19,213 nt of DNA from assembly GCA_008636095.1 (NCBI GenBank), contig VSJD01000223.1, positions 1 through 19,213 on the forward strand, written 5' to 3'. Numbering within the stretch: position 1 is the stretch's first letter; each line of letters starts with the position of its first letter. This stretch comes from Kiritimatiellota bacterium. Lineage in GTDB: Bacteria; Verrucomicrobiota; Kiritimatiellia; JAAZAB01. Under the pieces are notes generated by a model that did no database searches, was not told the DNA's origin, and worked only from the letters and a program-made list of their open reading frames with translations. Positions 4,140-19,213 of the stretch are shown here, one piece after another. The position numbers were made by a program, and so were the translations under genes.

Positions 4140-4147
4140 TTATTATC

Positions 4148-6816: not shown

Positions 6817-6860
6817 AAATTGAAGAAGAAAACGTGCCATCCTTGTGTCATCTTTGCATG

Positions 6861-6899: not shown

Positions 6900-6907
6900 C
6901 CTTCAAC

Positions 6908-7738
6908 CTAATCCGGCTGGCAATTGGGACAGAGATGGGTGGCGCGCTGGGCGAGAATCATCCGACGGATTGGTTTTCCACAGCGCAAACAGGGCAAACC
7001 GGTTCGTCGAAAGACATTCAAGCCGGCCTGGTTCCGTCCGCGTTTGCCGCCGGGCCGCTGAAAATTTGACTGGGCAGATCCAAGTGTTGTCCCCTTGTTC
7101 CGGATGCCGCGGCGCAAAACATGGCGAATGGCAACATGCAGGCGGCGGGCTTCCGTTGCGCTGAGCGTGGCTGCGACGCGCTCGGGATGCAAACGCGCGG
7201 TCCAGAGCGCCTCGTCGGCATAGATGTTGCCGATGCCGGCCAGGAATGTTTGATCCAGAAGCAGGGGCTTTAATTGCCGCCGCCGTGCGCGCAGTTGGCT
7301 GATAAATACCTTCTGGTCAAAATGCTCCGAAAGCGGCTCCGGTCCCAGGCGCCCCAGGATGCCTTCCGGCGTGCGTGTCAACAACCAGCGCCCGAACTTG
7401 CGCGTATCCCGGTAGCGCAGGTCGCGGCCATCATCCAGTCGCAGGATAATATGCTGATGCGGTTCCCGCGCCGCCCTCGGGCGGTCCAAGTGCAGCTGGC
7501 CGGTCATGCGCAGGTGAATTAATAGCGTATCGCCTCCGGAAAGCGTGAGGACGATGTACTTGGCGCGCCGACGGATGGATTGCACGCGTTGACCCTTCAG
7601 GCGCGCCGCAAATACGGCGGGCGTCAGCGGCGCAATCAGCGGCATCCAGAAAGCGCGCGCCCGGGTAATGACGCGGCCGATCAGGCCGCCCGCGCGCAAC
7701 TCGCGAACCACGGTTTCAACTTCGGGTAATTCCGGCAT
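6908..7738 (-). CDS. mutM: Formamidopyrimidine-DNA glycosylase (8-oxoguanine repair)
   Basis: Bifunctional glycosylase/AP lyase that removes 8-oxoguanine and formamidopyrimidines from DNA. The start at 7738 gives the invariant N-terminus MPELPEVETV, in which Pro2 becomes the catalytic nucleophile after Met removal and Glu3 is catalytic. A GGAGG lies eight bases upstream. The frame is open 30 bp further, but that would block the essential N-terminal proline. Lys60 in RRRAKYIVL is the conserved lysine. The C-terminus has the zinc finger C250-x2-C253 ... C270-x2-C273 and ends QPD. The 276-residue length is typical. It converges with topB, with a 123 bp gap holding inverted heptamer arrays. Confidence 0.95.
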   Translation of the reverse strand: MPELPEVETVVRELRAGGLIGRVITRARAFWMPLIAPLTPAVFAARLKGQRVQSIRRRAKYIVLTLSGGDTLLIHLRMTGQLHLDRPRAAREPHQHIILRLDDGRDLRYRDTRKFGRWLLTRTPEGILGRLGPEPLSEHFDQKVFISQLRARRRQLKPLLLDQTFLAGIGNIYADEALWTARLHPERVAATLSATEARRLHVAIRHVLRRGIRNKGTTLGSAQSNFQRPGGKRGRNQAGLNVFRRTGLPCLRCGKPIRRMILAQRATHLCPNCQPD

Positions 7739-7762
7739 GGCATTTTCCTCCCGGCATAACCC

Positions 7763-7791
7763 GGACATTTCACGCTTCGTGTGAAATGTCC
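7763..7791 (-). repeat. Perfect hairpin in the mutM leader
   Basis: GGACATTTCAC (7763-7773) and GTGAAATGTCC (7781-7791) are exact reverse complements separated by GCTTCGT. The hairpin begins 25 bp upstream of the mutM start codon, inside the transcript expected from the candidate promoter at 7889-7916. It may be a dispersed palindromic repeat or an RNA element in the leader; the sequence does not decide between these. Confidence 0.6.
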
Positions 7792-7888
7792 GCCTTTCCC
7801 TTCGACTTTGCTCAGGGCCGGCGGGCTTCGACGCGCCCCACAGAACGGGGCTTGCTCCGGGTTTACCTTTCGGCGCGTCAAAGGGTGA

Positions 7889-7916
7889 ACTATAAGCGCA
7901 TTATGTTTTGGCACAA
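7889..7916 (-). promoter_or_regulatory. Candidate sigma70-type promoter for mutM
   Basis: On the minus strand TTGTGC (7916-7911) and TATAGT (7894-7889) are 16 bp apart. Transcription would start near 7882 and give a leader of about 145 nt containing the 7763-7791 hairpin. Confidence 0.45.
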
Positions 7917-7917
7917 G

Positions 7918-7944
7918 AAAAAATCCAGCATGCGCCTGGATTTT
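7918..7944 (-). terminator. Possible terminator-like hairpin upstream of the mutM promoter
   Basis: AAAATCCAG (7920-7928) and CTGGATTTT (7936-7944) pair over 9 bp with a 7-nt loop. Read on the minus strand the stem runs into six Ts (7923-7918), like an intrinsic terminator, although the GC part of the stem is only four pairs. No gene upstream on that strand needs it, so it could simply be an insulator or chance. Confidence 0.3.
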
Positions 7945-7946
7945 GC

Positions 7947-7974
7947 TTGCAATTAATCACGTAAAAACGATAAT
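7947..7974 (+). promoter_or_regulatory. Candidate promoter for the DUF4838 gene
   Basis: TTGCAA (7947-7952), a 16-bp spacer, and GATAAT (7969-7974). It implies a leader of about 140 nt before ATG 8124. The surrounding DNA is locally AT-rich. Confidence 0.4.
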
Positions 7975-8123
7975 AAATTTCAACAAGCGTTCCCGTTCTT
8001 AAACGGCGAGGACTCGGCGCTCAATAAGTTGTGTGCTCAAATGCAGAAATCAGAAGAAGTTATATGGTTTTGGCCGGTTGAACAGATACGGAAAGCCTTC
8101 TTTTTGTAAAAAGGGATTGCGCC

Positions 8124-10547
8124 ATGATCTGTAATTTTAAAAAATTTATGTTGATTATGTTTCTGTCCGTGTTTGCATTGATAATTCCCCGCGAGGGAAA
8201 AAGTCAGTACACAATCGTGCAGGCGGACCAGCCCGCCAAGTTGGATAAGTTTGCGGCCCAGGAATTGTTCGGCTACCTGTTCCGGGTTACGGGAACTTCA
8301 TGCTGGGTCAAGTCGGAGTCCGCGCTTTCCGGGAAAGTTGTGGGAATATATGTCGGCGCGACAAAGTTTGCGGCCACAAACGGAATTAACGTGGCCCAAC
8401 TGGGGGAGCAAGAATGGATCATCCGGAGCGTCGGAAAAAATATCATTATTACCGGCGGACGCCCGCTGGGAACGCTTTATGGCGTTTACGAGTTTCTGGA
8501 GAACCAGGTGGGGTGCCACTGGCTGGATCCCTATACCGAAGTTGTTCCTTCCAAACCGGCGCTGGCATTTACCAACCTGAACATACGGGCAAAACCGGTT
8601 TTCTGGCAGCGCCATTTTGGAATAGCCGCTCATCAGGTAAACCCGGTGGACCATGAAAAAAGGAATATATGTTACCTCCGGAACAAGGTTAATGATGCCG
8701 ATTATTTCGGCGGCTCCACTGACGCTTTTTATCGGGTGACGGGATCTCCGGCTAGCTGTCACTCATTCTCTTATTATGTCAAAGCCTCAAGATGGTTTGA
8801 ATCTCATCCCGAATATTTTGAGCTCAATGACAAGGGCCAGCGCGTGCCTGCTTATGACGGCGAGGGGCCGGGCCAGATTTGCCTGACGCATCCGGATGTG
8901 CGCCTGATCGTGCTGGAAGAGCTCCGCAATTATATTGCCAAAGACCGCGTGACAGCCGCGGAAAACGGCTGTCCTCCTCCCCGCATTTATGACATCAGCC
9001 AGAATGACCAAGATGCACATTGCCTGTGCAAGAAATGCCAGGCTATTGTTGTTCGGGAAGGCGGGGAAAGCGGGCCCCTGGTTGATTTCATCAACGTCAT
9101 TGCCGAGGGTATTGAAAAGGATTATCCGGATGTTCTCATCCAGACTTTTGCCTATAACCAGACCCAGACACCTCCGAAAAAACTCAAGCCGCGCCATAAC
9201 GTCATCATCCGCTGGTGCGACAAATTCGGCATCTCGGACCTGGTGCGCCCGCTGAATCATCCCTGCAACGCCAAGCATTATAATCAAATCAGGGCATGGG
9301 GCAACATTGCCTCGCACGTGGCCGTCTGGGATTACTGGATCACCTACGGCAGGTATTCTTTTCCCGTGCCCTATTGCATGATTCAGTGCATCGGGCCGGA
9401 CTTGAAACTGTTTGCCGACGCGCACGTTGAAATATTGTATTGCGAGGAGGAGGAGGAGTCGCTCTGTGCGCCGGCAAAAAATGATCTGGGGAAAGTGGAA
9501 TGCCACGAACCCGGCGAGAATTTTAAGAACCTTAAATACTGGCTGGGATATAAACTCGCGGTCAATCCCTACCAGCCGACGGAACCTTTGATTAAAGTTT
9601 TCATGGATGGCTACTACGGCGCCGCTTCCCCGAAAATGAACGAGTATTTGAATTACCTCCAGGGACTGATAGGCAAGGAACCCAGCACCATGATGGTGCA
9701 AACCGCCCCGCATAAACTAAAATACCTGGATTTGAATTTCTTTGTTACGGCGGAAAAGATCTTTGATTCAGCCGAAGCGCTCGTCAAGCCGGGCAGTCTG
9801 CAGGCCCTTCATATTCAAAAGGAACGACTGATCGTGGAGGCCGCCCTGCTTTATCTCTGGCCCTGGCTGGAACGCAATGTTCCGTTAAATGCAAAAATGC
9901 CTTTTGACCATGAAACCGTGATTCGCCGCTATGAGACAAACTTGCGTGCGCAGTCCGATGCATTTTATTCCCCCAGCGCCCGGGCGGTGCGCGAGGACAA
10001 ACTGGTTAAACTGACGGACCTGTTCCGGAATCCGAAATTGCCGGAAAAATTGCGCAATTTGCCGCCCCGCGACGTGGCGGATTTCAACTGGTTGACCTTT
10101 CTGTTCCCTTGGACATGGCACACACCGGAGGGGCAGCAGCGATTTCATTATGTTGCCGATGAAGATGCGTGTGGCGGATGGGCAATGACTTTTGACGCGG
10201 AAAACGATGATGTTTATAAAAAACCGTTTGTGGTTGGAGTGACCGACAACGAGCCGGTCATCATTAAACACAAAGATATTGTGCAGGATGAAAAATTCAA
10301 CTTCTATGAAATTGGGAAATTCAACATCAAGAAAGGCGACGTTGTTTGGGCGCGTGCCGACAAACTATTGCGAGTGCCTGTTGACCGTCTTGCAAAAAAA
10401 AGCCCCAATGCGCTCAATAAATGGAACGTTTATATATCGTTGAAATTCAAGGGGCCGGCTTACGTCAAGAATTCGTCGCAATTAAACGGAATCTTTATGG
10501 ACCGGGTATTGCTGGTTAGACGGAATATTGCCGGATTTCCTCGGTGA
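8124..10547 (+). CDS. Secreted DUF4838 protein (alpha-glucuronidase-like N-terminal domain)
   Basis: AAGGGA (8111-8116) lies seven bases before ATG 8124. The 807-residue product starts with a signal peptide (about 1-28: basic MICNFKK, then a hydrophobic core) and should be exported. Residues about 30-150 resemble the alpha-glucuronidase (GH67) N-terminal domain: FAAQELFGYLFRVTG, IIITGGRPLGTLYGVYEFLE and GCHWLDPYTEVVPS. Residues about 155-450 match DUF4838, including ISQNDQDAHCLCKKCQAI with its clustered cysteines and the acidic YCEEEEES run. The rest is a helical region followed by a small beta-rich C-terminal part. Such proteins are expected to act on polysaccharides, but no substrate is established. 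It stands alone with no sulfatases, transporters or other glycosidases nearby. A single-gene unit is likely. Confidence 0.85.
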   Translation: MICNFKKFMLIMFLSVFALIIPREGKSQYTIVQADQPAKLDKFAAQELFGYLFRVTGTSCWVKSESALSGKVVGIYVGATKFAATNGINVAQLGEQEWIIRSVGKNIIITGGRPLGTLYGVYEFLENQVGCHWLDPYTEVVPSKPALAFTNLNIRAKPVFWQRHFGIAAHQVNPVDHEKRNICYLRNKVNDADYFGGSTDAFYRVTGSPASCHSFSYYVKASRWFESHPEYFELNDKGQRVPAYDGEGPGQICLTHPDVRLIVLEELRNYIAKDRVTAAENGCPPPRIYDISQNDQDAHCLCKKCQAIVVREGGESGPLVDFINVIAEGIEKDYPDVLIQTFAYNQTQTPPKKLKPRHNVIIRWCDKFGISDLVRPLNHPCNAKHYNQIRAWGNIASHVAVWDYWITYGRYSFPVPYCMIQCIGPDLKLFADAHVEILYCEEEEESLCAPAKNDLGKVECHEPGENFKNLKYWLGYKLAVNPYQPTEPLIKVFMDGYYGAASPKMNEYLNYLQGLIGKEPSTMMVQTAPHKLKYLDLNFFVTAEKIFDSAEALVKPGSLQALHIQKERLIVEAALLYLWPWLERNVPLNAKMPFDHETVIRRYETNLRAQSDAFYSPSARAVREDKLVKLTDLFRNPKLPEKLRNLPPRDVADFNWLTFLFPWTWHTPEGQQRFHYVADEDACGGWAMTFDAENDDVYKKPFVVGVTDNEPVIIKHKDIVQDEKFNFYEIGKFNIKKGDVVWARADKLLRVPVDRLAKKSPNALNKWNVYISLKFKGPAYVKNSSQLNGIFMDRVLLVRRNIAGFPR

Positions 10548-10617
10548 AAACGATGGCGTTTTATATGTATTGAAATAAAAAATATAAGCGATAGATTCTT
10601 GCGCAACAGGCGTGGGG

Positions 10618-10647
10618 TTAGACAAAAGCTAAAATTGGCTGTATATT
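10618..10647 (+). promoter_or_regulatory. Weak candidate promoter for the lipoprotein gene
   Basis: TTAGAC (10618-10623) and TATATT (10642-10647) with an 18-bp spacer, about 40 bp before the ATG at 10688. The hexamers are imperfect. Confidence 0.3.
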
Positions 10648-10687
10648 ACGGCCGAACGGCAAACATGCCATCAGGAGGAAACAAATC

Positions 10688-11239
10688 ATGACACGCGTGG
10701 CAGTTATCGGAATGACGCTCATTGTGCTTGCATTCGCCGGTTGCATTGACAACCGTGAAATCGAGTCATTAAAAAGCGAGAATGCTTCCCTTTCGGATAA
10801 AATCGCTTCGCTTAACAAGCGGGTGAAGGCGGTCGAGGGTGCCTGCCTGCAGTTGAACGCGCGCTTTGAAAGCCGCGACCAGACCGCAACAGGCAGCCGG
10901 CCGGCACGTGATGAGATTGAATGGGGTGTATCAAAGCCGGATTTGAACGCCCGGCTAACCCGCGTCACGTTCAGTCAACGTATGGTTGATATGACGATGT
11001 CGCAAGTGATGGCTAAGCTTGGAAAACCCGACAATGTCAGCGACGAGTCCGGCATCCAGCAATGGATTTATAACAAGCTTGAACTGGCCAAGGAAAGCGG
11101 CGGAGTGGAACAGAGTCCGGCGCTGATAGTTTTTAAACATGGCAGTGTTTTGCGCGCTGAGCTGAGCGGAAAGGTTTCATCGTCATCAGAACCGAAGGCA
11201 AGCGAATCCGACAGCGCGGTAGTTCAGACTGATCAATAA
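10688..11239 (+). CDS. Coiled-coil lipoprotein with an SmpA/OmlA-like C-terminal region
   Basis: A strong AGGAGG (10673-10678) precedes ATG 10688 by nine bases. The N-terminus is a lipoprotein signal, with lipobox LAFAGC at residues 14-19, so Cys19 should be lipidated and Asn/Asp residues after it fit membrane retention signals only loosely. Residues about 22-55 are a heptad-rich coiled coil (IESLKSENASLSDKIASLNK). Residues about 95-155 contain VDMTMSQVMAKLGKPDNV followed by QQWIYNK, the pattern of the SmpA/OmlA (BamE-like) fold. The tail (about 158-183) is Ser/Glu-rich and disordered. Function is unknown; a periplasmic envelope role is an inference. The 183-residue length suits a small envelope lipoprotein. 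Confidence 0.75.
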   Translation: MTRVAVIGMTLIVLAFAGCIDNREIESLKSENASLSDKIASLNKRVKAVEGACLQLNARFESRDQTATGSRPARDEIEWGVSKPDLNARLTRVTFSQRMVDMTMSQVMAKLGKPDNVSDESGIQQWIYNKLELAKESGGVEQSPALIVFKHGSVLRAELSGKVSSSSEPKASESDSAVVQTDQ

Positions 11240-11422
11240 CAAATCGCACCCCCCGTTTCCGCATTGCCGGAACCGGATACTGCGGATACAGTAAAACCGT
11301 TTTAGCGTTCCCTTTATCAGGGTGGTTTCAGCCTTTCGACGCGGCGCAAGGCGCCTTGTCCCTCGAATATGCTCGGGAACCTGGGCTTGTCGAAGGACTC
11401 AAGGTTAACAGGGAGATGTTTT
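11240..11422. repeat. Intergenic region with a dispersed-repeat remnant upstream of the S41 protease
   Basis: This 183 bp has no gene. A small GC hairpin (GGCGC-AAG-GCGCC, about 11343-11355) is followed by CTGGGCTTGTCGAAGGACTC (about 11381-11400). The latter reads as the inverted form of the CCTTCGAC-type element at 7799-7818, so both look like remnants of a dispersed repeat. The frame of the downstream gene is open through it (from 11369), which is why the longer start is not used. Confidence 0.4.
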
Positions 11423-12736
11423 ATGTCGGCATTAATTATTGGGCGGAGATTTCTGTGGCTGGTCGGGGCGCTGTTGCTGGGCGTTAACCTGGTCGTGGGC
11501 GCCAAGATTGCCTCCCGGGCCGATAAGACCAACGATACCGACTCGGTGGCTTTTGAAAAAATGCAGTTGCTGACGGAAGTGATGATGCTGATCCGTCAGA
11601 ATTACGTGGACGAAGACAAAACGCAATACAAGGACCTTTTATATGGCGCCTTGCGCGGCATGCTCCAGTCCCTGGATCCCCATAGCCAGTTTATGGAGCC
11701 GGCAATGTTCTCCGACATGAAGAATGATACCGCCGGTGAATTCGGCGGGCTGGGTATTATCATTGGCATGCGCGACGGCGTCCTGACCGTCATCGCGCCC
11801 ATGGAAGACACGCCGGCCTTCCGGGCCGGCATTATGCACGGCGATAAGATCATGGCCATTGACGGCGCATCCACGGAGGCTATTTCCCTGCAGGAGGCGG
11901 TCAGCAAAATGCGGGGCGAGCCCGGCACGAAGGTGAAAATTAAAATCCTGCGTATCAAGCCTCAGGAAGTCAAGGAGGTTGAAATCGTCCGCGCTATCAT
12001 CAAGGTGGAGAGCGTCAAGGGCGCGGCCATCCTGGAAGACCACATTGGCTATGTTCGCATTGTCCAGTTCAACGAGCCGACGGCCGACGCCTTGCAAAAG
12101 GCCTTGGATGAGTTGGCGGCCAAGGGCATGAATGCCCTGGTTTTGGATTTGCGGAACAATCCCGGCGGCTTGCTGGTCTCGGCTGTGGATGTCAGCCAGA
12201 AATTTTTAAAGCGCGGTGCCAAGATTGTGTCCACCAAGGGACGTCCGGGGGTAGGTCTCCAGTCCGAATATGAGGCCAAGGGCAAGGTCCATTATCTCGA
12301 TTATCCCATTGTTGTGCTGGTCAATGGCGGGAGCGCGAGTGCCTCGGAAATCGTGGCCGGCGCCTTGCAGGATCACCGCCGGGCAATATTGATCGGCGAA
12401 AAAACTTTTGGCAAGGGCTCCGTGCAGAGTGTCCAGCCGCTGGAAGACGGTTCGGCCATCCGCCTGACCACGGCCAAGTATTACACGCCCAGCGGCCGTA
12501 TGATCCATGAAAAAGGCATTGAACCGGATGTCGTGATTCCGATGTCGGCCATGCAATGGCAGAAAGTCCAGATCAAGCGCTCGCGGGAAGAGTTGGGCAA
12601 CGAAGAAGAGGATGACATCAAGCTTGACCTCGAACATGTGACCGACACCCAGTTGGAGCGTGCCATGGACGTTCTGAAAGGTGTTCGCCTGTTTCAATCC
12701 CGCGCCGATTTTCATCAGCAGTATGCCAGCCAGTAA
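11423..12736 (+). CDS. S41 family carboxyl-terminal processing protease (CtpA-type)
   Basis: Serine protease of the Prc/CtpA family, which cleaves near the C-termini of periplasmic substrates. Start ATG 11423 is chosen because GGGAG (11411-11415) lies seven bases upstream and an N-terminal membrane anchor (about residues 10-27) follows; the earlier in-frame ATG at 11369 lies in repeat DNA. The 437-residue protein has an N-terminal helical region (YVDED, then LDPHSQFM at 85-91), a PDZ domain (about 105-185, beginning FGGLGIIIG), and the peptidase core. The catalytic dyad is Ser306, the middle serine of GSASASE, and Lys331 in GEKTFGKGSVQ. The 25-residue spacing equals that of E. coli Prc. Substrate is unknown. 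tsaD begins 8 bp after the stop, so co-transcription is likely. Confidence 0.92.
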   Translation: MSALIIGRRFLWLVGALLLGVNLVVGAKIASRADKTNDTDSVAFEKMQLLTEVMMLIRQNYVDEDKTQYKDLLYGALRGMLQSLDPHSQFMEPAMFSDMKNDTAGEFGGLGIIIGMRDGVLTVIAPMEDTPAFRAGIMHGDKIMAIDGASTEAISLQEAVSKMRGEPGTKVKIKILRIKPQEVKEVEIVRAIIKVESVKGAAILEDHIGYVRIVQFNEPTADALQKALDELAAKGMNALVLDLRNNPGGLLVSAVDVSQKFLKRGAKIVSTKGRPGVGLQSEYEAKGKVHYLDYPIVVLVNGGSASASEIVAGALQDHRRAILIGEKTFGKGSVQSVQPLEDGSAIRLTTAKYYTPSGRMIHEKGIEPDVVIPMSAMQWQKVQIKRSREELGNEEEDDIKLDLEHVTDTQLERAMDVLKGVRLFQSRADFHQQYASQ

Positions 12737-12744
12737 TAGCCAGT

Positions 12745-13788
12745 ATGAATGTCCTGGGTATCGAAACCTCCTGTGATGAAACCGCCGCTGCTGTGGTTGC
12801 CGATGGCGGCACGGTGCTTTCCAGTGCGGTATTCAGCCAGGTGCCCTTGCATCGTCCCCATGGCGGGGTGGTTCCGGAAATCGCCTCCCGTCAGCACGTT
12901 GAACATCTGCCGCGAATGCTTGACGAGGCCATGGCGCAGTCCGGGCTGGAATGGTCACACTTGCAGGCCGTGGCTGTGACCTACGGCCCGGGGTTGGCCA
13001 GTTCCCTGCTGGTTGGGCTATCCGCGGCGAAAGCGCTGGCCCTGCGTCTTAACATTCCTTTGATTGGCATCAATCATCTGGAGGCCCATCTGTATTCAGT
13101 TTTCCTGGCGCGCAATGCCCCGCGCTATGCAGATGCCTGCCCGCTGGTGGCGCTGATTGTTTCCGGGGGCCATACCTGCCTGGTTCGTGTGGATGCGCCC
13201 GGGCAATACCGGCGACTGGGCCAGACCATTGACGACGCCGCCGGGGAGGCTTTTGACAAGGGCGCCAAACTGCTGGGCCTGGAGTATCCCGGCGGCCCGG
13301 TGATTGATCACATCAGCGCGCTTGGCGATGCCGGCCGAATTGCTTTTCCGCGGACACGCGTGTTGAAAGCCGACTTCGCGGACGGATTATCGCCGGCGTT
13401 ATGTTTCAGCTTCAGCGGATTAAAAACTTCGTTGCTGTATTACCTGAGGGACCATCCGGAGGCCGTCCGGGAGCCTGTCTTGAAAGATGTGGCGGCGGGC
13501 TACCAGGAAGCCATCGTGGATGTGCTGGTGCGCGGGGCACAGCGGGCGCTCCAGCGCGAACGGGTACAGACGCTGGTGGTGGCCGGCGGCGTTTCGTTGA
13601 ATCGTCGCTTACGTTCCAGACTGCTCGATATGGCCGCCGGCTTGAAGGTTAGCGTCCTATTGCCGGCATCCTCGTATTGCGTGGATAACGCGGCCATGGT
13701 GGCCGGCTTGGCGGGCATCGGACAGGGCATTACGGGCGAGGCGGCCTGGTCATTGGATGCCTGTCCTAATCTCGAGATCGGCGGCTGA
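12745..13788 (+). CDS. tsaD: tRNA N6-adenosine threonylcarbamoyltransferase
   Basis: Transfers the threonylcarbamoyl group from TC-AMP (made by TsaC/Sua5) to A37 of ANN-decoding tRNAs, acting with TsaB and TsaE. ASKHA-fold signatures: GIETSCDET (5-13), VPEIASRQHV, TYGPGLASSLLVGLSAAKAL, the metal-binding His111 and His115 in NHLEAHLYS, VSGGHTCLV, and the late Asp314 in YCVDNAAMVAG. The 347-residue length matches bacterial TsaD. No Shine-Dalgarno precedes ATG 12745, but the start fits the family N-terminus, and the 8-bp gap after the protease stop suggests translational coupling. Its 3' end overlaps the convergent deacetylase gene by 23 bp. tsaB and tsaE are not in the window. Confidence 0.96.
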   Translation: MNVLGIETSCDETAAAVVADGGTVLSSAVFSQVPLHRPHGGVVPEIASRQHVEHLPRMLDEAMAQSGLEWSHLQAVAVTYGPGLASSLLVGLSAAKALALRLNIPLIGINHLEAHLYSVFLARNAPRYADACPLVALIVSGGHTCLVRVDAPGQYRRLGQTIDDAAGEAFDKGAKLLGLEYPGGPVIDHISALGDAGRIAFPRTRVLKADFADGLSPALCFSFSGLKTSLLYYLRDHPEAVREPVLKDVAAGYQEAIVDVLVRGAQRALQRERVQTLVVAGGVSLNRRLRSRLLDMAAGLKVSVLLPASSYCVDNAAMVAGLAGIGQGITGEAAWSLDACPNLEIGG

Positions 13789-14959
13789 AAATAATTTTTC
13801 CACCTACCACGGTATAAAGCACGTCAAGTTTCGGACTCAACACCAACAGGTCGGCGTCCCGCCCGACAGCGATTTCGCCTTTATTCAGGCCAAGCAACCG
13901 GGCTGGATTGCCGGAACACAGCCTGCTGGCGGCAGCCATATCTTTGTGAAACATCCGGATCGTATTGCGAAAGCCGTCAATGGGCGTCAAGGCACTGCCG
14001 GCCAGACCCATGCCGCGATCAATCAGCCGAACGCCATCATTCGGGCCGGTGATTTTGACGCGGCCCCAGCCTTGCGGCAGGTCATATTCGCCGGGCGCCA
14101 GGCCCGCGCCGAAGTTGCTGTCTGTGACGAAAACGACGTTATTGGCAGGTTTACAGCGCAAGGTTTTCTCAACATGGAAAGCCGGCACATGCGTGCCGTC
14201 CGCAATGATTTCACATGCTACGCGATCCTCCACCAGCAAATAATCCACCAGCCCGGCGGGAGTGACGCCAGGGTCGGTCTGGGGCGGGATGACGAAGGTG
14301 TCAAACAGGTGCGTAACCAGCCGGGCGCCCGCCGATATGGCCGCTTGCGCTTGCGCCACGGTGCATTGCGTATGCGCAATACTGCAAACTACGCCGGAAC
14401 GGCATAACGCGCGAATCGCCGCCGGCGCGCCCGGGAGTTCTGGCGAAATATCCCATATCTTGATCCATCCGCCCCCAGCACGCAGAAGGTGGCGGGTCGT
14501 GGTTGGATGGATCGGCGCCAGATCCTTGCTTCGGCCTGCGCCCGTTCGTGCCAGATAAGGGGATTCCAGTCGAAAGCCGACAACCTGGGGTACCGCACGG
14601 AGGTTGTCGGTTTCGGCCAGGTGGCGCTGCATGTGTGCCGAAGTTTCTTCCGGTGGCCCGAAAAACGTGGGATAGAACGCCGTTGTACCGCGCGAGGCTT
14701 CCTGCTCCGCATACGCTCTTAGCGAGCCGCTGGTGGAAATCCGTCCGATCCCATGCGTATGAATATCAATCAAGCCCGGGATCACGTAGGCGCCCCGGCA
14801 ATCAAGCGTTGTGATCTTGCGATCCGGTTTTCCAATGCGGGTAATTTTTCCGTTGTTGATTGTCAATCCGCTGGTTACGATTCGGCCGTCGGGCAACAGG
14901 ATTTTTCCGTTACGAATGGCCAGCGCAGGCATGCTTGTCTTTATGGTTTGTTTTTTCAT
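13766..14959 (-). CDS. N-acetylglucosamine-6-phosphate deacetylase-like amidohydrolase
   Basis: Amidohydrolase of the NagA type, which removes acetate from GlcNAc-6-P in aminosugar use or cell-wall recycling. The 397-residue protein has DIHTHG (65-70), a metal-site Glu132, His196 (IAHTQCT), His217 (VTHLFD), His257 (ADGTHV) and catalytic Asp280 (VTDS), so the active-site set is complete. The usual HLEGP motif is changed to RLESP, and VTDA to VTDS, so substrate preference may differ from standard NagA. The C-terminus has the typical NPARLLGL ... GEIAVGRDADLLVL run. Met1 (14959) and Met10 (14932) are both possible starts, neither with a clear ribosome binding site. No nagB or PTS gene is adjacent. 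A related deacetylase of another N-acetyl sugar phosphate is the main alternative. Confidence 0.82.
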   Translation of the reverse strand: MKKQTIKTSMPALAIRNGKILLPDGRIVTSGLTINNGKITRIGKPDRKITTLDCRGAYVIPGLIDIHTHGIGRISTSGSLRAYAEQEASRGTTAFYPTFFGPPEETSAHMQRHLAETDNLRAVPQVVGFRLESPYLARTGAGRSKDLAPIHPTTTRHLLRAGGGWIKIWDISPELPGAPAAIRALCRSGVVCSIAHTQCTVAQAQAAISAGARLVTHLFDTFVIPPQTDPGVTPAGLVDYLLVEDRVACEIIADGTHVPAFHVEKTLRCKPANNVVFVTDSNFGAGLAPGEYDLPQGWGRVKITGPNDGVRLIDRGMGLAGSALTPIDGFRNTIRMFHKDMAAASRLCSGNPARLLGLNKGEIAVGRDADLLVLSPKLDVLYTVVGGKIIFSRRSRD

Positions 14960-14987
14960 GTTGATATGCTATGGTTAAATCGTGTGG

Positions 14988-15017
14988 TTGGATCTGAATC
15001 CGATGACGCTTTATAAT
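14988..15017 (+). promoter_or_regulatory. Candidate sigma70-type promoter for the glycosyltransferase
   Basis: TTGGAT (14988-14993), an 18-bp spacer, and a perfect TATAAT (15012-15017). The start site would be near 15024, giving a leader of about 38 nt. It lies in the divergent gap opposite the NagA-like gene. Confidence 0.5.
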
Positions 15018-15061
15018 CGATTGGATGCCGATTTCAAGCTAAAAGGACGCCGTGTTATAAG

Positions 15062-16120
15062 ATGGCCATGAACGCCCCACCCGAACTTTCTATCGTTATT
15101 CCGACCCTTGGTCGGCCTATTCTGATTCGAACTCTGCAATCTTTGGTTCGTGCCGACGGGTTTGGCCGGCTGGATATCATGGTGGCCGGGCAGATTACGG
15201 ATGCGCTCGTGCGGAAAGCGGTCCAGGATCTGAGCGTGCAGTATCCCAATATCCGGCATCTGGAGGTTTCCTTTCCACGTGGCGATTCCAGTGAGAAAAA
15301 GAATGCCGGCTGGCGTGCCGCGAAGTACGACCTGATCGCGTTTATTGATGACGACGTCGTAGTCGCGCGGAATTGGCCGGAAAAAATACGCGCCCCGTTT
15401 CAACAGCCTGACGTGGGGCTGGTCAGCGGGCCGGGCCTGGTTCCAGACGATATTGCCCTGATGGCCCGTTTGGCGGGGAATGCCCTGGCCTCGAAAGCGG
15501 CCGGTTATGTGGCAGGGCGCTACCTGGCCGGAAATCCGGAACCGCGGAAAATACGATGGTCGAGCTTGATAGGATGTAACATGGCTTATCGGCGCTCGGT
15601 ATTGGAACAACTGGGAGGATTTGATCCCGCCTTCTGGCCGGGTGAAGAAATGATTGCCGCCTTCCAGGCGACGCAGCTTGGCCACAAACTGATTTTTCAG
15701 CCTAACGCAATCCTGTATCATTACCCGCGTTCCAGTTTTTGGCGCTTTTGCAGGCAGATATACGGTTACGGCGCCACGCGCATCCGCTTGATCCGCGCGG
15801 GTGTGGATGTTGAGCTGACGACCATCATCCCGGCCGTCGGGTTGTTGGCCCTGGTGGTGCTGGGGATTGTCGCGGTGTTCTGCCGATGGGCGGGATTTCT
15901 GTTGCTGGCCGGCTTGGCGCTTTACGCGCTGGCGGATTTCTGGGCCACGCTGGCCAAGTATCGGGAAACGCGGCGGTGGGTGGACCTGTTGATTTTCTTC
16001 CTCATCCCCATCATGCACTTGAGTTATGGCCTGGCCGAATGGGTGGAGCTCGTGCGCCCGGGCAAGGATTTGAGTGAGACGCTACATTCTAAGGCGCGCG
16101 ATAAGACGGCCTCAATGTAG
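15062..16120 (+). CDS. Family 2 glycosyltransferase with C-terminal membrane helices
   Basis: GT-A fold enzyme that transfers a sugar from an NDP-sugar, probably to a lipid-linked or surface glycan at the inner face of the membrane. The N-terminus ELSIVIPTLGRP is the nucleotide-binding start; Asp96-Asp97-Asp98 in FIDDDVV form the metal-binding DXD-type motif; GCNMAYRRSVLEQLGGFDP and WPGEEMIAAFQA fit the acceptor side and the ED-type catalytic motif. Hydrophobic helices lie at about 258-300 and 310-330. Length is 352 residues. The start could be ATG 15062 or ATG 15068; neither has a good ribosome binding site, since the nearest purine run (AAAAGGA) is about 14 bases away. No other glycan genes are adjacent, so acceptor and pathway are unknown. 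Confidence 0.88.
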   Translation: MAMNAPPELSIVIPTLGRPILIRTLQSLVRADGFGRLDIMVAGQITDALVRKAVQDLSVQYPNIRHLEVSFPRGDSSEKKNAGWRAAKYDLIAFIDDDVVVARNWPEKIRAPFQQPDVGLVSGPGLVPDDIALMARLAGNALASKAAGYVAGRYLAGNPEPRKIRWSSLIGCNMAYRRSVLEQLGGFDPAFWPGEEMIAAFQATQLGHKLIFQPNAILYHYPRSSFWRFCRQIYGYGATRIRLIRAGVDVELTTIIPAVGLLALVVLGIVAVFCRWAGFLLLAGLALYALADFWATLAKYRETRRWVDLLIFFLIPIMHLSYGLAEWVELVRPGKDLSETLHSKARDKTASM

Positions 16121-16173
16121 AGGCGATTTGGTGGTGATGACTGGGGTAAGCTTATGTTGGCGGCGCGGACGCC

Positions 16174-16199
16174 ATCGCGCCTGATGACCCCGGCGCGAT
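16174..16199 (+). terminator. Possible terminator hairpin after the glycosyltransferase
   Basis: ATCGCGCC (16174-16181) and GGCGCGAT (16192-16199) pair perfectly around a 10-nt loop, 53 bp after the stop codon. No T-run follows, so termination is only a guess. The rest of 16121-16342 shows no gene, only a small palindrome (AAACCT-GCAG-AGGTTT, 16287-16302). Confidence 0.35.
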
Positions 16200-16342
16200 A
16201 CCCTCCCAAAGAAATCTGCTATTATCATTTTTGCTCAAGCCGGTTCCGGTTGACTTGGTTTCCATAGGATGAGTCCTTCAAAAGACAAACCTGCAGAGGT
16301 TTCATGACCCCAGAGAACGGAGGGAGCATCGCGTAGGCGCTT

Positions 16343-16636
16343 TTACAACGTATCAAACGGGCTGCGCACGCCGATGCCGGTATGCTTTGCCGTGTGCAGA
16401 TAGATTTCCGTCGTGGAAATATTCGCATGGCCAAGCAGATCCTGAACATCGCGGATGCCGGTGCCACTCGCCAGCAGATGTGTCGCAAAACTGTGCCGTA
16501 GCGTATGCGGCGACACGCGCTTGTCGAACCCCGCCTTCTCCACCGCCTCGCGAATCGCCTTTTGGAACGTCACATCCAGCACATGATGCCGGCGGACGAT
16601 GCTGTTGCGGTGGTCGCGCATCAGATTGCGCGACGT
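16343..16636 (-). pseudogene. intI: Integron integrase, C-terminal fragment (5' part deleted)
   Basis: Only the last 95 or so residues of a tyrosine recombinase remain. Visible are [14 protein letters not shown], the box II motif [14 protein letters not shown] with His and Arg, [16 protein letters not shown] with the nucleophilic Tyr, and the ending [10 protein letters not shown] GVRSPxD ending and the RHH-VLD stretch are features of integron integrases rather than XerC/D. Homology stops near 16636, at a point where a typical IntI would continue into FPS and some 200 more N-terminal residues; the frame closes soon after (stop at 16669-16667). The missing part contains the first catalytic arginine, so the product cannot recombine DNA. 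The fragment abuts a Nudix-like fragment on the other strand, pointing to a deletion. Confidence 0.8.
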
Positions 16637-16641
16637 GGATG

Positions 16642-16842
16642 CTATGCGACGTCCTCGGCGGCAACGTCAGGCCAACTGATGGAGCGAAAGCAGAAGGCAT
16701 AACAGAAGCCCGGTGGTTCCAGATAGCGGAATTGGCCGATGAAGCGGTATTCCCCCAGCCGGTCATGCAGTACAACTGGGAAGAATTCAGATCGGACAAG
16801 TGGCAAACACAATGCCTGCCATCCCGTGTAGCAAGTTTCTGA
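16642..16842 (+). pseudogene. Nudix-hydrolase-like C-terminal fragment
   Basis: In the plus frame ending at TGA 16840-16842 the product reads VLGGNVRPT, then AEGITEARWFQIAELADEAVFPQPV, then NWEEF, followed by about 16 residues. The E-x2-EARWF-x-I-x-ELA pattern with VFP downstream is what follows the Nudix box in many Nudix hydrolases. The Nudix box itself (GX5EX7REUXEEXGU) is missing, so this is a 3' remnant with no catalytic site. Coding similarity begins near 16645, exactly where the integrase homology ends. It could have been the gene of a former first cassette, although no attC can be made out behind its stop codon. Confidence 0.5.
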
Positions 16843-16855
16843 TAGTGGGCTAATC

Positions 16856-16862
16856 GTTCGGC
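16856..16862 (+). other. Putative 5' boundary (R' box) of cassette A
   Basis: GTTCGGC is the exact reverse complement of GCCGAAC (17174-17180), the R'' box of the first recognisable attC. The same R'/R'' identity holds for cassettes B, C and D, so the cassette probably starts at 16857. A full attC or attI to its left is not visible. Confidence 0.5.
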
Positions 16863-16872
16863 AAAAGACAGG

Positions 16873-16903
16873 TTTACTTCCGTGTCCATTCTGATATTAT
16901 ACT
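16873..16903 (+). promoter_or_regulatory. Candidate promoter of cassette A
   Basis: TTTACT (16873-16878) and TATTAT (16895-16900), 16-bp spacer; TATACT at 16898-16903 is an overlapping alternative. The start codon at 16907 follows almost immediately, so the mRNA would be leaderless or nearly so. Confidence 0.35.
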
Positions 16904-16906
16904 CGC

Positions 16907-17137
16907 ATGATTCAAAGGGTCATAACCAAACGCGATCTGACTCATTCCTCGACGAGAGAAGATGTCTCTTTCTGGAAATCTCGTCCGCCTTCGGAGCGAA
17001 TTGCCGCCGTTGAGGCACTGCGTCGTCAACATCATGGAAGTACAGCCCGACTTCATGAAGCCGCGGGGTCAGCCCTTATAATAAAGAATAACGACTTGCG
17101 TGGAAGCCGCGGGGTCAGCCCTTATAATAAAGAATAA
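16907..17137 (+). pseudogene. Cassette A gene: truncated small ORF of unknown function
   Basis: The first 49 or so residues (MIQRVITKRDLTHSSTRED, then FWKSRPPSERIAAVEALRRQ and HHGSTARL) look like the start of a short acidic/basic helical protein. I associate this pattern with small proteins found beside nucleotidyltransferase-type toxins, but cannot confirm the family. From about 17057 the reading frame runs into the 46-bp tandem duplication, and the last 27 residues are translated repeat. The natural C-terminus and any partner gene are missing, so I call it broken. It has no Shine-Dalgarno and starts a few bases after a candidate -10 element. It sits between the cassette boundary at 16857 and attC1. 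Confidence 0.5.
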
Positions 17138-17148
17138 CGACTTGCGTG
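17057..17148 (+). repeat. Perfect 46-bp tandem duplication
   Basis: Two identical 46-bp units (17057-17102 and 17103-17148), each starting GAAGCCGCGGGGTCAGCCC and containing CTTATAATAAAGAATAACGA. The GGGGTCAG core resembles REP-like sequences linked to RAYT (REP-associated tyrosine) transposases, which is an inference. The copies interrupt the cassette A gene. Confidence 0.85.
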
Positions 17149-17172
17149 GATCTGCAATTAAAAAATAATAAA

Positions 17173-17236
17173 GGCCGAACCAGCGGGCTGAGCACTACGC
17201 CGCTAACGCAGCGAGGCTCACCCGCCCCGTTCGAGC
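17173..17236 (+). other. attC recombination site 1 (end of cassette A)
   Basis: R'' GCCGAAC (17174-17180) and R' GTTCGAGC (17229-17236) pair over CGAAC/GTTCG. L'' GCGGGCTGAGC (17183-17193) pairs with L' GCTCACCCGC (17216-17225), leaving one unpaired C in the left arm, the extrahelical base that directs integrase to the bottom strand. The 22-bp variable centre has little symmetry. Cleavage would fall between G17229 and T17230. Confidence 0.85.
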
Positions 17237-17257
17237 AAAATACGAGCAAATAAGCAA

Positions 17258-17294
17258 TTGACGACAAACACCAAAAAGGTATAGTATTCATACC
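17258..17294 (+). promoter_or_regulatory. Promoter and probable operator of the brnTA cassette
   Basis: TTGACG (17258-17263), a 16-bp spacer, and TATAGT (17280-17285). The -10 element lies inside the palindrome GGTAT-N7-ATACC (17278-17294), a natural site for autorepression by the ribbon-helix-helix antitoxin. The ATG follows at 17298, so the transcript would have a leader of only a few bases. Confidence 0.6.
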
Positions 17295-17297
17295 GTT

Positions 17298-17558
17298 ATG
17301 GAATTTGAATTCGACAAACAAAAGAGCCGATCAAACAAAGAAAAACACGGGATAGACTTTGTGGAAGCGCAAGTGCTGTGGCACGACATCAGCCGAGTCG
17401 AAATCCCTGCTAGAACAAAAGATGAGCCAAGGACGTTGGTTGTAGGAACAATAAACAAGAAACATTGGACAGCCATCGTTACTTATCGAGACAATAAAAC
17501 CAGAGTCATCTCGGTCAGACGATCCAGGCCGGAAGAGGTGCAGATGTATGAAAGCTAA
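17298..17558 (+). CDS. brnT: BrnT family toxin (type II toxin-antitoxin, cassette B)
   Basis: The 86-residue protein begins MEFEFDKQKSRSNKEKHGID, the hallmark N-terminus of BrnT (FDxxKxxxNxxKHGIxF), continues FVEAQVLWHD, and ends with ISVRRSRPEEVQMYES, matching the conserved strand and arginine-rich end of the RelE-like fold. BrnT is a ribonuclease-type toxin that arrests translation and is neutralised by BrnA. The antitoxin gene overlaps the last 11 bases. Toxin-first order is normal for brnTA. ATG 17298 has no Shine-Dalgarno sequence; translation probably starts on a nearly leaderless mRNA from the promoter at 17258-17285. The gene lies between attC1 and attC2. Confidence 0.9.
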   Translation: MEFEFDKQKSRSNKEKHGIDFVEAQVLWHDISRVEIPARTKDEPRTLVVGTINKKHWTAIVTYRDNKTRVISVRRSRPEEVQMYES

Positions 17559-17775
17559 AGAATTCGATGAGAAATTTGAAAAGGGCGGGAACGTCACCAG
17601 CTATCTTGACTTGTCCAAGGCCAGAAGACCCGACCAAGAGCAACGCCGGGTCAATGTTGATTTTCCCAACTGGATGATCCATTCTTTGGATAAAGAGGCT
17701 AATAAATTAGGTGTCACCCGTCAATCCATCATCAAAGTCTGGATTTCCGAACGGCTGAAAGTAACAACCGCTTGA
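17548..17775 (+). CDS. brnA: BrnA family ribbon-helix-helix antitoxin (cassette B)
   Basis: Begins inside the toxin gene (shared ATGAAAGCTAA, 17548-17558), with GGAAGAGG (17531-17538) nine bases upstream. Residues 1 to about 35 are the flexible toxin-binding part (FDEKFEKGGNVTSYLDL); residues about 36-70 (RVNVDFPNWMIHSLDKEANK, then GVTRQSIIKVWISERL) are a ribbon-helix-helix DNA-binding domain. The family's C-terminal dimerising RHH domain represses the brnTA promoter, and the palindrome at 17278-17294 is the likely operator. The length (75 residues) is normal for BrnA. It ends 10 bp before the attC2 R'' box, so the cassette is compact. Confidence 0.88.
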   Translation: MKAKEFDEKFEKGGNVTSYLDLSKARRPDQEQRRVNVDFPNWMIHSLDKEANKLGVTRQSIIKVWISERLKVTTA

Positions 17776-17785
17776 AGAAATGCAG

Positions 17786-17846
17786 GCTCGAACCACCGGC
17801 TTCAGCTTACCTCGCTCCGCTCGGCGGCTGAACCGCCCCATTGGCC
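17786..17846 (+). other. attC recombination site 2 (end of cassette B)
   Basis: R'' GCTCGAAC (17786-17793) is the exact reverse complement of the R' that opens cassette B (GTTCGAGC, 17229-17236). L'' CCGGCTTCAGC (17796-17806) pairs with L' GCTGAACCG (17827-17835), leaving one extrahelical C. The R' position reads ATTGGCC (17840-17846) where GTTGGCC is expected, a G-to-A change at the cleavage triplet. The centre contains CTCGCTCCGCTCGG. Confidence 0.82.
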
Positions 17847-17856
17847 AAGAAAGAGA

Positions 17857-17885
17857 TTGCATACAAATGCATTCTAATGTATTCT
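17857..17885 (+). promoter_or_regulatory. Promoter and probable operator of cassette C
   Basis: TTGCAT (17857-17862), 17-bp spacer, TATTCT (17880-17885). The palindrome TGCAT-ACAA-ATGCA (17858-17871) and the direct repeat ATGCATTCTA/ATGTATTCTA (17867-17886) overlap it and are candidate antitoxin binding sites. Confidence 0.55.
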
Positions 17886-17904
17886 ATCAGAAAAAGGAGG
17901 AACT

Positions 17905-18144
17905 ATGTCCAAAACTTTAACATTACGGCTTGATGAACCGGTCTATCAGCTCTTCAAAACGGTGGCAGAGAGCGAGAACAGGCCTATCTCGAACTTTATC
18001 GAGACGGCAGTAATGCGTTTCGTCAAAGAAAATGAAGCCGTGGACGAATTCGAAATGGCGGAAATCCGCGGCAATGTCGAACTCAACCGAAGCCTGACAC
18101 GAGGACATCTGGATGCAAAAAACCGACGTGGCACATTCGTCTGA
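17905..18144 (+). CDS. CopG-type ribbon-helix-helix antitoxin (cassette C)
   Basis: A strong AAGGAGG (17894-17900) precedes ATG 17905. The 79-residue protein starts with MSKTLTLRLDEPVYQLFKTV, a ribbon strand (LTLRL) followed by helices (residues about 8-45: NRPISNFIETAVMRFVKE) in the arrangement of MetJ/Arc/CopG repressors. The charged C-terminal part (about 46-79) should wrap around the toxin. The downstream RelE/ParE-type gene begins within its last 32 bases, so antitoxin and toxin are translationally coupled. Autoregulation at 17857-17886 is likely. Exact family (CopG, RelB or DUF-type) is not certain. Confidence 0.82.
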   Translation: MSKTLTLRLDEPVYQLFKTVAESENRPISNFIETAVMRFVKENEAVDEFEMAEIRGNVELNRSLTRGHLDAKNRRGTFV

Positions 18145-18412
18145 GTTTCGTATCTTTGAAACGGAAGAGTTCCGGAAGGCATTGTCCAAGCTCGGCTCTC
18201 CGCGCTTTCTGCCCAAGAAGCTGGACACATACGTCTTTCCCCAGTTGAGGCGGGGGCCACACTACGGACCGAATATCCGTAAATTACAAGGATATGAACC
18301 GCCAACTTGGAGGTACCGGATTGGTCCCTACCGTTTATTCTATGCCGTGAACGACGAAAAAAGGATCGTTTTTATCCTAACGATAGACGACCGAAAAGAT
18401 ACGTACAGATGA
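18113..18412 (+). CDS. RelE/ParE-superfamily toxin (cassette C)
   Basis: 99 residues. GAGGA (18101-18105) lies seven bases before ATG 18113, inside the antitoxin gene. The first 15 residues are a loosely conserved leader, and the fold starts at FETEEFRKALSKL. The middle YGPNIRKLQGYEPPTWRYRIGPYRLFYAV with IVFILTIDDRKDTY fits the RelE/ParE pattern (KLxG ... WRxRxGxYRvxY ... vxILxIxxRxxxY). Whether it cleaves ribosome-bound mRNA (RelE) or poisons gyrase (ParE) cannot be read from the sequence. A later internal start is possible since the N-terminal leader is unusual, but no other ribosome binding site is better. The gene ends 3 bp before attC3. Confidence 0.85.
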   Translation: MQKTDVAHSSEFRIFETEEFRKALSKLGSPRFLPKKLDTYVFPQLRRGPHYGPNIRKLQGYEPPTWRYRIGPYRLFYAVNDEKRIVFILTIDDRKDTYR

Positions 18413-18415
18413 TTC

Positions 18416-18482
18416 GGCCAACAATCAAATCCAGCCTATCGGCGGCCAAAGCGCCGCCTCAAGCTGATTTGCGTCGTTCGAT
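18416..18482 (+). other. attC recombination site 3 (end of cassette C)
   Basis: R'' GGCCAAC (18416-18422) matches the reverse complement of the cassette C opening box (ATTGGCC, 17840-17846, expected GTTGGCC). L'' CAAATCCAGC (18426-18435) pairs with L' GCTGATTTG (18463-18471), with one extrahelical C. An inner stem GGCGGC (18441-18446)/GCCGCC (18453-18458) closes the hairpin. R' is GTTCGAT (18476-18482), with cleavage after G18476. Confidence 0.85.
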
Positions 18483-18502
18483 CAAAAGGCATAAAAATCG
18501 TG

Positions 18503-18531
18503 TTGACATTATTGAATACATTGCATACTCT
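18503..18531 (+). promoter_or_regulatory. Candidate promoter of cassette D
   Basis: Consensus TTGACA (18503-18508), 17-bp spacer, and TACTCT (18526-18531). The start codon of the antitoxin is at 18564, so the leader is about 26 nt and contains AAAGGAG. The -35 element is the best in the array. Confidence 0.55.
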
Positions 18532-18563
18532 ATATTACAGTGACATACAGAAAGGAGCATAAC

Positions 18564-18782
18564 ATGAGCACCGCCGTGTCCATTCGACTGCCCGATATAA
18601 TTGCCAAGGAACTTAACCACATTGCCGAGGAAACCGAACGCCCCCGGTCTTTTCATGTTCAGAAGGCGCTGGAATCCTACATTGATGATTTTGCCGATGT
18701 CCAGATTGCACTGGATCGCCTCCGTGACCAGAAAGACCCGGTCGTATCAAGTCGCGAAATGAGGAAATCACTTGGCCTATAA
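18564..18782 (+). CDS. Ribbon-helix-helix antitoxin, RelB/DUF6290-like (cassette D)
   Basis: ATG 18564 follows AAAGGAG (18551-18557) by six bases; an ATG 24 bases upstream has no such site. The 72-residue product begins MSTAVSIRLPDIIAKELNHI, a ribbon strand (VSIRLP) and helices with ETERPRSFHVQKALESYIDD, then IALDRLRDQ and a short C-terminal tail ending MRKSLGL. I recognise the pattern of small RHH antitoxins of the RelB/DUF6290 type that pair with RelE toxins. It should bind its own promoter as a dimer. The toxin start lies 11 bases before its stop. Confidence 0.85.
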   Translation: MSTAVSIRLPDIIAKELNHIAEETERPRSFHVQKALESYIDDFADVQIALDRLRDQKDPVVSSREMRKSLGL

Positions 18783-19026
18783 CATTACCTACAAAAAGAG
18801 CGTCGAGAAAGATTTATCCAGACTTGGTAAGCCCGAGGCAAGACGTATTCTCGACAAGATCGAGAAAGAACTGAGTGCGCGCGCCGACAATTATCCTCTT
18901 CTTAAAGGAATGTTTGTCGGCCTCCGGAAACTCCGTGTTGGTGACTACCGGGTCATCTTTGCAATTCTCGAACAAGAGGTCGTGATTTTGCGAATCGGTC
19001 ACCGCCGGGATATTTATAAAAACTGA
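18772..19026 (+). CDS. RelE/ParE-superfamily toxin (cassette D)
   Basis: 84 residues starting at TTG 18772; GAGGAA (18761-18766) lies five bases upstream, which is why I accept the rare start. It overlaps the antitoxin by 11 bases. The protein shows the RelE pattern clearly: ITYKKSVEKDLSRL, then RRILDKIEKEL, then YPLLKGMFVGLRKLRVGDYR with the conserved arginine and glycine, VIFAILEQEVVILRIGHRRDIYK. RelE-type toxins cut mRNA in the ribosome A site. The stop codon (19024-19026) lies within the attC R'' remnant TGATCGA, so the cassette end follows directly, and a group II intron interrupts it at 19031. Confidence 0.9.
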   Translation: MAYNITYKKSVEKDLSRLGKPEARRILDKIEKELSARADNYPLLKGMFVGLRKLRVGDYRVIFAILEQEVVILRIGHRRDIYKN

Positions 19027-19030
19027 TCGA
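19024..19030 (+). other. Interrupted attC site 4 (R'' remnant of cassette D)
   Basis: TGATCGA is the reverse complement of TCGATCA at 18478-18484, seven bases of the R' region GTTCGATCA that opens cassette D. The next two bases should be AC (completing GATCGAAC) but are AT, the complement of the 3' end of the intron that starts at 19031. So the attC that closes cassette D is split here. It overlaps the toxin stop codon. Confidence 0.65.
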
Positions 19031-19213
19031 ATCGGCTCGCCGGGACTGACCCGTAAAGATCAACCCCGGCTGCCACACCACCCGGCGTGCGGGTCCGCAC
19101 CGGGCGGTTCCAAACAGCCTACGCCAACGGCTTCGGCCGTCGCGTCAGACACGGGCCTTCGGCCCGTAGTGAAGAGTAATCCATAACGTGCGCATGTCGG
19201 GGACTCCTTGTTC
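19031..19213 (-). mobile_element. Group IIC (attC-type) intron, 3' end only
   Basis: On the minus strand, domain V lies at about 19109-19076: a hairpin beginning ACCGCCCGGTGCGG with a CGC triad (the class C form) and, on the return strand, a 2-nt CG bulge before CCGGGTGGT. Then comes domain VI, with stem CCGGG... at 19039-19044 and 19065-19070, and the intron 3' end at 19031 (GAGCCGAT). The hairpins ACGGGCC-GAA-GGCCCGT (about 19151-19167) upstream are intron stems. Class IIC-attC introns insert into attC opposite to the cassette genes, as here. The 5' part and most of the intron-encoded protein lie beyond the window. The intron type is inferred from structure, not from a database search. Confidence 0.7.
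19145..19213 (-). CDS. Possible C-terminus of the intron-encoded protein, partial
   Basis: One minus-strand frame is open from the window edge to TGA (19147-19145) and ends in ...DMRTLWITLHYGPKARV, 18 residues or so of sensible composition. The position, upstream of domain V, is where a class C reverse transcriptase/maturase would end, but 22 residues are too few to identify it, and I see no reverse transcriptase motif. Confidence 0.25.
   Translation of the reverse strand, partial: EQGVPDMRTLWITLHYGPKARV

Follow-up and report, generated by a model that had tools for sequence, protein, structure and literature searches.

A toxin-antitoxin cassette array beside a broken integron integrase gene in a Kiritimatiellota bacterium

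Do the three toxin-antitoxin pairs at the right end of a Kiritimatiellota contig stand in genuine integron cassettes, and is there still an integrase to move them? The contig is VSJD01000223.1 (GenBank assembly GCA_008636095.1), taken from position 1 to 19213 of the forward strand; this whole stretch of 19,213 nucleotides is called the window here. A preliminary description made from the sequence alone read positions 16857-19030 as an integron cassette array with three toxin-antitoxin cassettes, each under a candidate promoter of its own. The attC sites, cassette ends and gene families bear out the array and its cassettes, but the integrase gene (intI) is broken, and the array is very probably what is left of a decaying chromosomal integron, a CALIN (cluster of attC sites lacking an integrase). 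Below, G000 is this genome; G001, G003, G004, G008, G063, G070 and G073 are relatives; C-numbers denote contigs and L-numbers loci. Features are collected in Table 1.

Table 1. Features of the array, its flanks and related elements on other contigs (positions are those of the window unless a locus is named)
Feature	Position	Strand	Evidence or remark
C-terminal intI remnant, about 96 aa	16343-16633	-	model positions 220-315 of 315; TIGR02249 E=2.2e-34 (7.1e-34 in the assembly search)
222 bp between intI remnant and cassette 1	16634-16855		expected place of attI and of the lost part of intI
Cassette 1, without recognisable gene	16857-17229	+	ends TTCGGC...GCCGAA match
attC site 1	17174-17235	+	R1 31.1 bits, E=1.8e-5
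Sigma-70-like promoter candidate before brnT	17258-17285	+	TTGACG-16-TATAGT, 10/12 consensus positions
brnT-type ribonuclease toxin, cassette 2	17298-17558	+	PF04365 78.8 bits, cut-off 34.5
brnA-type antitoxin, cassette 2	17548-17775	+	NF047399 124.7 bits, cut-off 60; overlaps brnT
attC site 2	17787-17846	+	R1 25.3 bits, E=3.6e-4; R' box opens with A, not G (17840)
Small antitoxin candidate, cassette 3	17905-18144	+	sub-cut-off matches only; precedes and overlaps toxin gene
ParE/RelE-superfamily toxin, cassette 3	18113-18412	+	PF05016 34.7 bits, cut-off 23
attC site 3	18416-18482	+	R1 49.9 bits, E=1e-9
RelB-like ribbon-helix-helix (RHH) antitoxin, cassette 4	18564-18782	+	NF048017 59.3 bits, cut-off 50; RHH_1 23.5 bits, cut-off 20.5
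ParE/RelE-superfamily toxin, cassette 4	18772-19026	+	PF05016 54.7 bits, cut-off 23; stop codon overlaps R'' box
R'' box of attC site 4, intron-interrupted	19024-19030	+	TGATCGA(A) pairs with TTCGATCA at cassette 4 start
Group II intron 3' end, cut by contig end	19031-19213	- (intron sense)	identical copies end C308 and C321
N-terminal intI piece (C277)	L034 12324-12620	+	adjoins attI-like copy; 63% identity over 87 aa to G063 intI locus
attI-like copy, this genome (C308)	L022 8160-8260		
attI-like copy, this genome (C321)	L023 1408-1500	-	
attI-like copy, this genome (C277)	L034 12096-12186	-	
Near-full-length attI-like copy, relative (G003)	L152 3888-3979		
Near-full-length attI-like copy, relative (G008)	L160 2574-2676		

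attC sites and cassette ends

The attC sites were scored with a covariance model, R1, aligned from 29 attC sites at 14 relatives' loci and none from this genome, so that the test is not circular. Run over the whole window with filters off, R1 gives as its top three matches exactly the three attC sites that had been proposed, all on the plus strand, and its fourth-ranked match has E=0.61. The cassettes are thus all in one orientation, as described, and each site has the single unpaired C that had been claimed for its left arm (hairpin scan, in which site 2 is detected only with the looser box ATT). Because the training sites of R1 were collected by hairpin scan, the model is biased toward the stem and bulge that the scan looks for; all 10 pairs of its L stem vary on both sides somewhere in the alignment, which is not independent proof, the sites having been selected by stem. 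An outside check comes from strand: in 80 named intI loci R1 gives 72 matches at E up to 1, and 67 of them are on the strand opposite intI, as expected for cassettes. The hand-made hairpin scan was rejected as evidence for attC, since it is unspecific (mean of 4.2 hits per shuffled window over 20 shuffles, both strands), and was used only to gather candidates from relatives. Rfam has no family over its curated threshold in the window, and its two sub-threshold matches in 16300-19213 look like chance.

The ends of the cassettes agree with the sites. The start of an integron gene cassette should match its own R'' box, and this is found in all four cassettes of the window, with R'/R'' complementarity beyond TT/AA of 4, 5, 4 and 6 bases for cassettes 1 to 4. 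The true pairing of starts with R'' boxes scores 19, the best of the 24 possible (next 14, mean 8.25). Four further cassettes elsewhere in this genome are messier, with runs of 5, 2, 5 and 0 (C277_1 has the 0 and C321_3 the 2), and when all eight are pooled 18 of 40320 pairings equal or beat the true one. Among relatives' cassettes 96 of 100 were usable, and their mean run is 3.74 against 0.81 when shuffled, a value that none of 2000 shuffles reached. The R'/R'' match put forward as the signature of excision as circles therefore stands for the ends of all four cassettes, with a flaw in the first base of the R' box at attC2; in the relative G001 the attC2 cassette opens with CGTTGGCC.

Cassette 1 has an open reading frame (ORF) at 16907-17137 that matches no Pfam or NCBIfam family, and a 46-bp tandem duplication at 17057-17148. 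Sequence similar to this duplication also occurs on contigs C321, C4 and C3 of this genome. The C4 copy stands close before a gene that looks like a REP-associated transposase.

Three toxin-antitoxin pairs and their relatives

The three toxin-antitoxin pairs of the preliminary description find support in family matches of BrnTA and RelE/ParE type, for cassette 3 in its toxin, the antitoxin candidate being under every cut-off. Cassette 2 has adjacent, overlapping BrnT and BrnA genes, both over cut-off, and cassette 4 has a RelB-like antitoxin with a ParE/RelE-family toxin, again both over cut-off, as in RelBE/ParDE-type systems. The antitoxin candidate of cassette 3 matches RH3_dom, DUF6364, DUF6290, CB_ParB_C and RHH_5 at E from 4e-5 to 0.06, each under its cut-off. 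Relatives of the toxins in PDB include 3g5o_B (E=2.4e-5) and 2khe_A (E=2.4e-4) for cassette 3, and 2khe_A (E=4.9e-10) for cassette 4. Plasmid records give two matches to 16857-19030, both BrnTA-like and at 66.8% identity; viral contigs yield no relative of BrnT.

Among 193 genomes, counting this one, homologues of the three toxins are present in 38, 26 and 42. Of the 113 matches outside this genome, the 84 that came with loci were examined for a neighbouring attC site, adjacency being an R1 match at E up to 1 no more than 450 or 150 bases downstream of the toxin gene or 600 upstream. A same-strand attC adjoins the toxin in 38 of the 84 loci (15/29, 11/26 and 12/29 per toxin), with an attC on both sides in 11; an attC on the opposite strand adjoins none of the 84. 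In the congener G001, the cassette-3 toxin (87% identical protein; L278 compared with window 17841-18476) is followed by a different attC stem.

In G073, intI is open over model positions 4-313 and three successive cassettes carry a BrnT-like/CopG pair (both under cut-off), RelB/YafQ, and ParE with an RHH-like partner (the partner under cut-off); further on is a BrnT/BrnA-like pair. This window is thus not alone in having a run of toxin-antitoxin cassettes. A wider survey of 100 cassettes from relatives, counted after one of 124 attC matches had been excluded as cut by a contig end, covered 103 ORFs of 45-180 aa plus 119 same-strand ORFs of up to 200 aa. Roughly a dozen toxin-family matches stand among the matches listed (25 of 34 and 25 of 53 families), and no enrichment is claimed.

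A broken integrase gene, attI-like copies and an intron

A complete integron has an intact intI, and the locus is not shown to be a working one: only the C-terminal end of the gene flanks the array, and none of nine TIGR02249 matches in the draft assembly (357 contigs, 87% complete) is over the family cut-off. The remnant is 84% identical over 96 aa to the G063 intI, its best match among the loci compared, and the N-terminal piece on C277 has that same best-matching locus. Since there are only C- and N-terminal fragments, none over cut-off, the intI of this genome, present in one or two copies, is broken. Between the remnant and cassette 1, the ORF covering 16634-16855 matches no Pfam family, and a comparison of this genome's attI copies with the window by blastn gives no match. 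The short reading frame 16650-16842, at the expected place of the rest of intI, resembles by eye the end of a Nudix hydrolase.

The attI copies just mentioned are a sequence of about 95 bp common to C277, C308 and C321 that by eye ends at the start of a cassette. It is taken to be attI, provisionally, for its place next to the intI piece on C277 and because its core, GAAGTA-GGC-CAAT...CTG|TT, can be seen upstream of intI, by eye, in G063 and G070 (in G063 also weakly by blastn, E=0.001). That such sites stand at the head of cassettes although no intact integrase is found is less expected than the other findings, and a narrow literature search found no paper on multiple attI sites. Over the genome as a whole there are at least 13 attC-like R1 matches at E<=0.1 on nine contigs, three of them in the window, a lower bound obtained from 150 scored candidates out of 2056; scans of single contigs found more.

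At its right end the window runs into a group II intron, whose presence, also part of the preliminary description, is real by its junctions, its identical copies on C308 and C321 and full-length copies elsewhere. The last 184 bases of the window also terminate C308 and C321, identically, and in all three contigs an R''-like box precedes the element. The G003 copy, 96% identical, is part of a maturase-bearing group II intron of 1870 nt; the related copy at L152 (G003) has a TIGR04416 maturase (396.6 bits, cut-off 300) and the catalytic RNA domains RF02001 and RF01998, and the 3' end in the window has no Rfam match. The intron is inserted between the two A of the RYYYAAC of R'' (RYYYA^AC), with the rest of the attC on the other side of the G003 copy, and junctions on both sides are seen in three full copies (L152, L153 and L157). 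Insertion in R'', on the bottom strand and opposite to the cassettes, fits by its pattern the group IIC-attC rule as given in PMC7923331. Contig C207 opens with the other end of such an intron, followed by the remainder of an attC (R1 E=0.022) and then by apparently ordinary chromosome. On C217 (L246, about 2298-2934) an apparent maturase-less copy of a group II intron, seen by eye, stands beside a weak attC-like match (E=0.32).

Probable decay, proposed retention and known systems

The attC sites, cassette ends, gene families, integrase remnant and intron insertion have direct support. They make up what is expected of a CALIN: at least two neighbouring attC sites, here three on the plus strand within 1.3 kb and a fourth interrupted, with a C-terminal fragment in place of a complete intI nearby; the intact intI of a complete integron is missing from the available sequence. 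Because this remnant alone flanks the array and no match in the assembly is over the integrase cut-off, we consider decay of a chromosomal integron very likely. To judge from the anatomy, an integron integrase would have captured the cassettes earlier, at attC sites formed by the folding of one strand. The integrase gene would then have broken: its C-terminal end stayed next to the array, and a different contig has, adjoining an attI-like site, an N-terminal stretch of that intI type. What is left is one cassette in which no gene is recognised, together with three compact toxin-antitoxin cassettes of type II, and a group II intron has jumped into the attC after the last pair. The pairs would be expressed on their own and retained because the longer-lived toxin poisons any cell that has lost them, their retention would also protect neighbouring DNA, and the cassettes would now be movable only with an integrase supplied from elsewhere. 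Expression, toxicity and stabilisation of the array by the pairs are what we infer.

Self-expression of the pairs is plausible from their leaders. A consensus scan of 16850-19060 on both strands gives 6 promoter-like sites against 2.3 expected, and one of the candidates stands before brnT. By eye, the leader of the cassette-3 pair is alike in G001 and G004, with TTGCA-like and TATTCT-like hexamers equally spaced, and the leader of cassette 4 has TTGACA without a good -10.

Several observations pull the other way. The same consensus scan found no promoter reaching threshold for the pairs of cassettes 3 and 4, so that the claim of a candidate promoter for each pair is supported before brnT and falls short for the other two. 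No attC adjoins the toxin in 46 of the 84 homologous loci (some of them cut by contig ends), and in the congener G004 the cassette-3 toxin gene has, by eye, only a decayed attC; the pairs can therefore live without an integron. When the flanks of the intron are joined, the stem scan passes one of three copies (L157), and the stems of L152 and L153 are seen by eye with one mismatch each. In a draft of this completeness an intact intI may, moreover, have escaped assembly.

Retention itself might serve another end. A review states that toxin-antitoxin cassettes can act against the homologous systems that plasmids and phages carry (PMC8618304), and the pairs here could be kept for such defence rather than for stabilising the array. 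Against this, none of the six pair proteins matches a PADLOC-DB model at E<=0.01, a weak argument as the library may not contain these families; we hold the defence reading to be possible but doubtful. Somewhat less probable, and on the whole unlikely, is that the integron still works, its integrase merely missing from the draft or supplied in trans while the cassettes go on shuffling. The state of the assembly would allow for this, attI-like sites persist on C277, C308 and C321, the stems of the three attC sites are retained, and intI is over cut-off in 50 of 97 genomes searched in this class, a set made up of this genome and its relatives; but this genome has no intI match over cut-off, both of its pieces are fragments sharing one best-matching intI, and the conserved crossover G is lost in attC2. 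The junction of integrase remnant and array could also be an artefact of assembly or binning in a draft whose contigs break at a multicopy intron, which is quite improbable, since remnant and array share a single contig, oriented to each other as expected, and relatives of the same class have both types. An ordinary cluster of toxin-antitoxin operons with chance hairpins, although simple hairpins with AAC/GTT ends are as common by chance as the shuffles indicate, is refuted by the E-values of the independent covariance model, the matched cassette ends and the same families standing beside attC in other genomes, and is next to impossible.

With decay of the integron as the preferred reading, a wider and quite tentative suggestion can be made, that the integron of this bacterial family has dispersed into pieces still carrying attI, with self-expressed toxin-antitoxin cassettes keeping the leftover arrays and attC-borne group II introns giving repeats for recombination. 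If so, toxin-antitoxin cassettes would preserve leftover arrays after the death of the integrase, and the introns in attC would be the repeats by which the pieces recombined. The array offers a natural test of the stabilisation idea, in which retention of arrays with and without toxin-antitoxin cassettes is compared after loss of intI.

The array had been presented as a toxin-antitoxin array outside vibrios; it does lie outside them, but such arrays are not new there (PMC7370490, PMC7923331). Toxin-antitoxin systems are among the most abundant functions of metagenomic integrons, BrnT/BrnA, RelE/RelB and ParE/ParD being named, in what is a gene catalogue from metagenomes and not this array (PMC7370490), and oral, largely Treponema-like cassettes include them too (PMC4909258). 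The nearest likeness is the integrase-less array of Halorhodospira halochloris, which carries group II introns and five or six toxin-antitoxin systems, BrnT/A accounting for three (PMC7923331). That CALIN shares with the present one an attC array outside vibrios without integrase, type II cassettes including BrnT/A, and inserted group II introns; its introns are of class IIB, whereas the present array has an intron inserted in the IIC-attC manner and keeps a remnant of intI. The same source describes a lake metagenome array with a truncated IIC-attC intron and two toxin-antitoxin cassettes, and group IIC-attC introns, which like this one enter the bottom strand of attC within R'', at a TTGT/T-like site, and run opposite to the cassettes.

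As in the Vibrio cholerae superintegron, toxin-antitoxin cassettes lie in an attC array, and those of V. cholerae are stated to have their own promoters; but V. cholerae has 19 such cassettes in one massive array, and here there is a four-cassette remnant beside a broken integrase gene (PMC11023631). The attI-like copies resemble Delta-attI-type cassettes and attG sites in that attI is found away from its usual place by intI (PMC12901181). In those mobile integrons pieces of attI replace the attC of a cassette, whereas here copies of about 95 bp stand in front of arrays that have no intact intI. The literature thus already has toxin-antitoxin cassettes outside vibrios, including runs and BrnTA pairs, as well as attC sites holding group II introns, and the array is a confirmation rather than a surprise: a clear case, outside vibrios, of toxin-antitoxin cassettes apparently outlasting their integrase.

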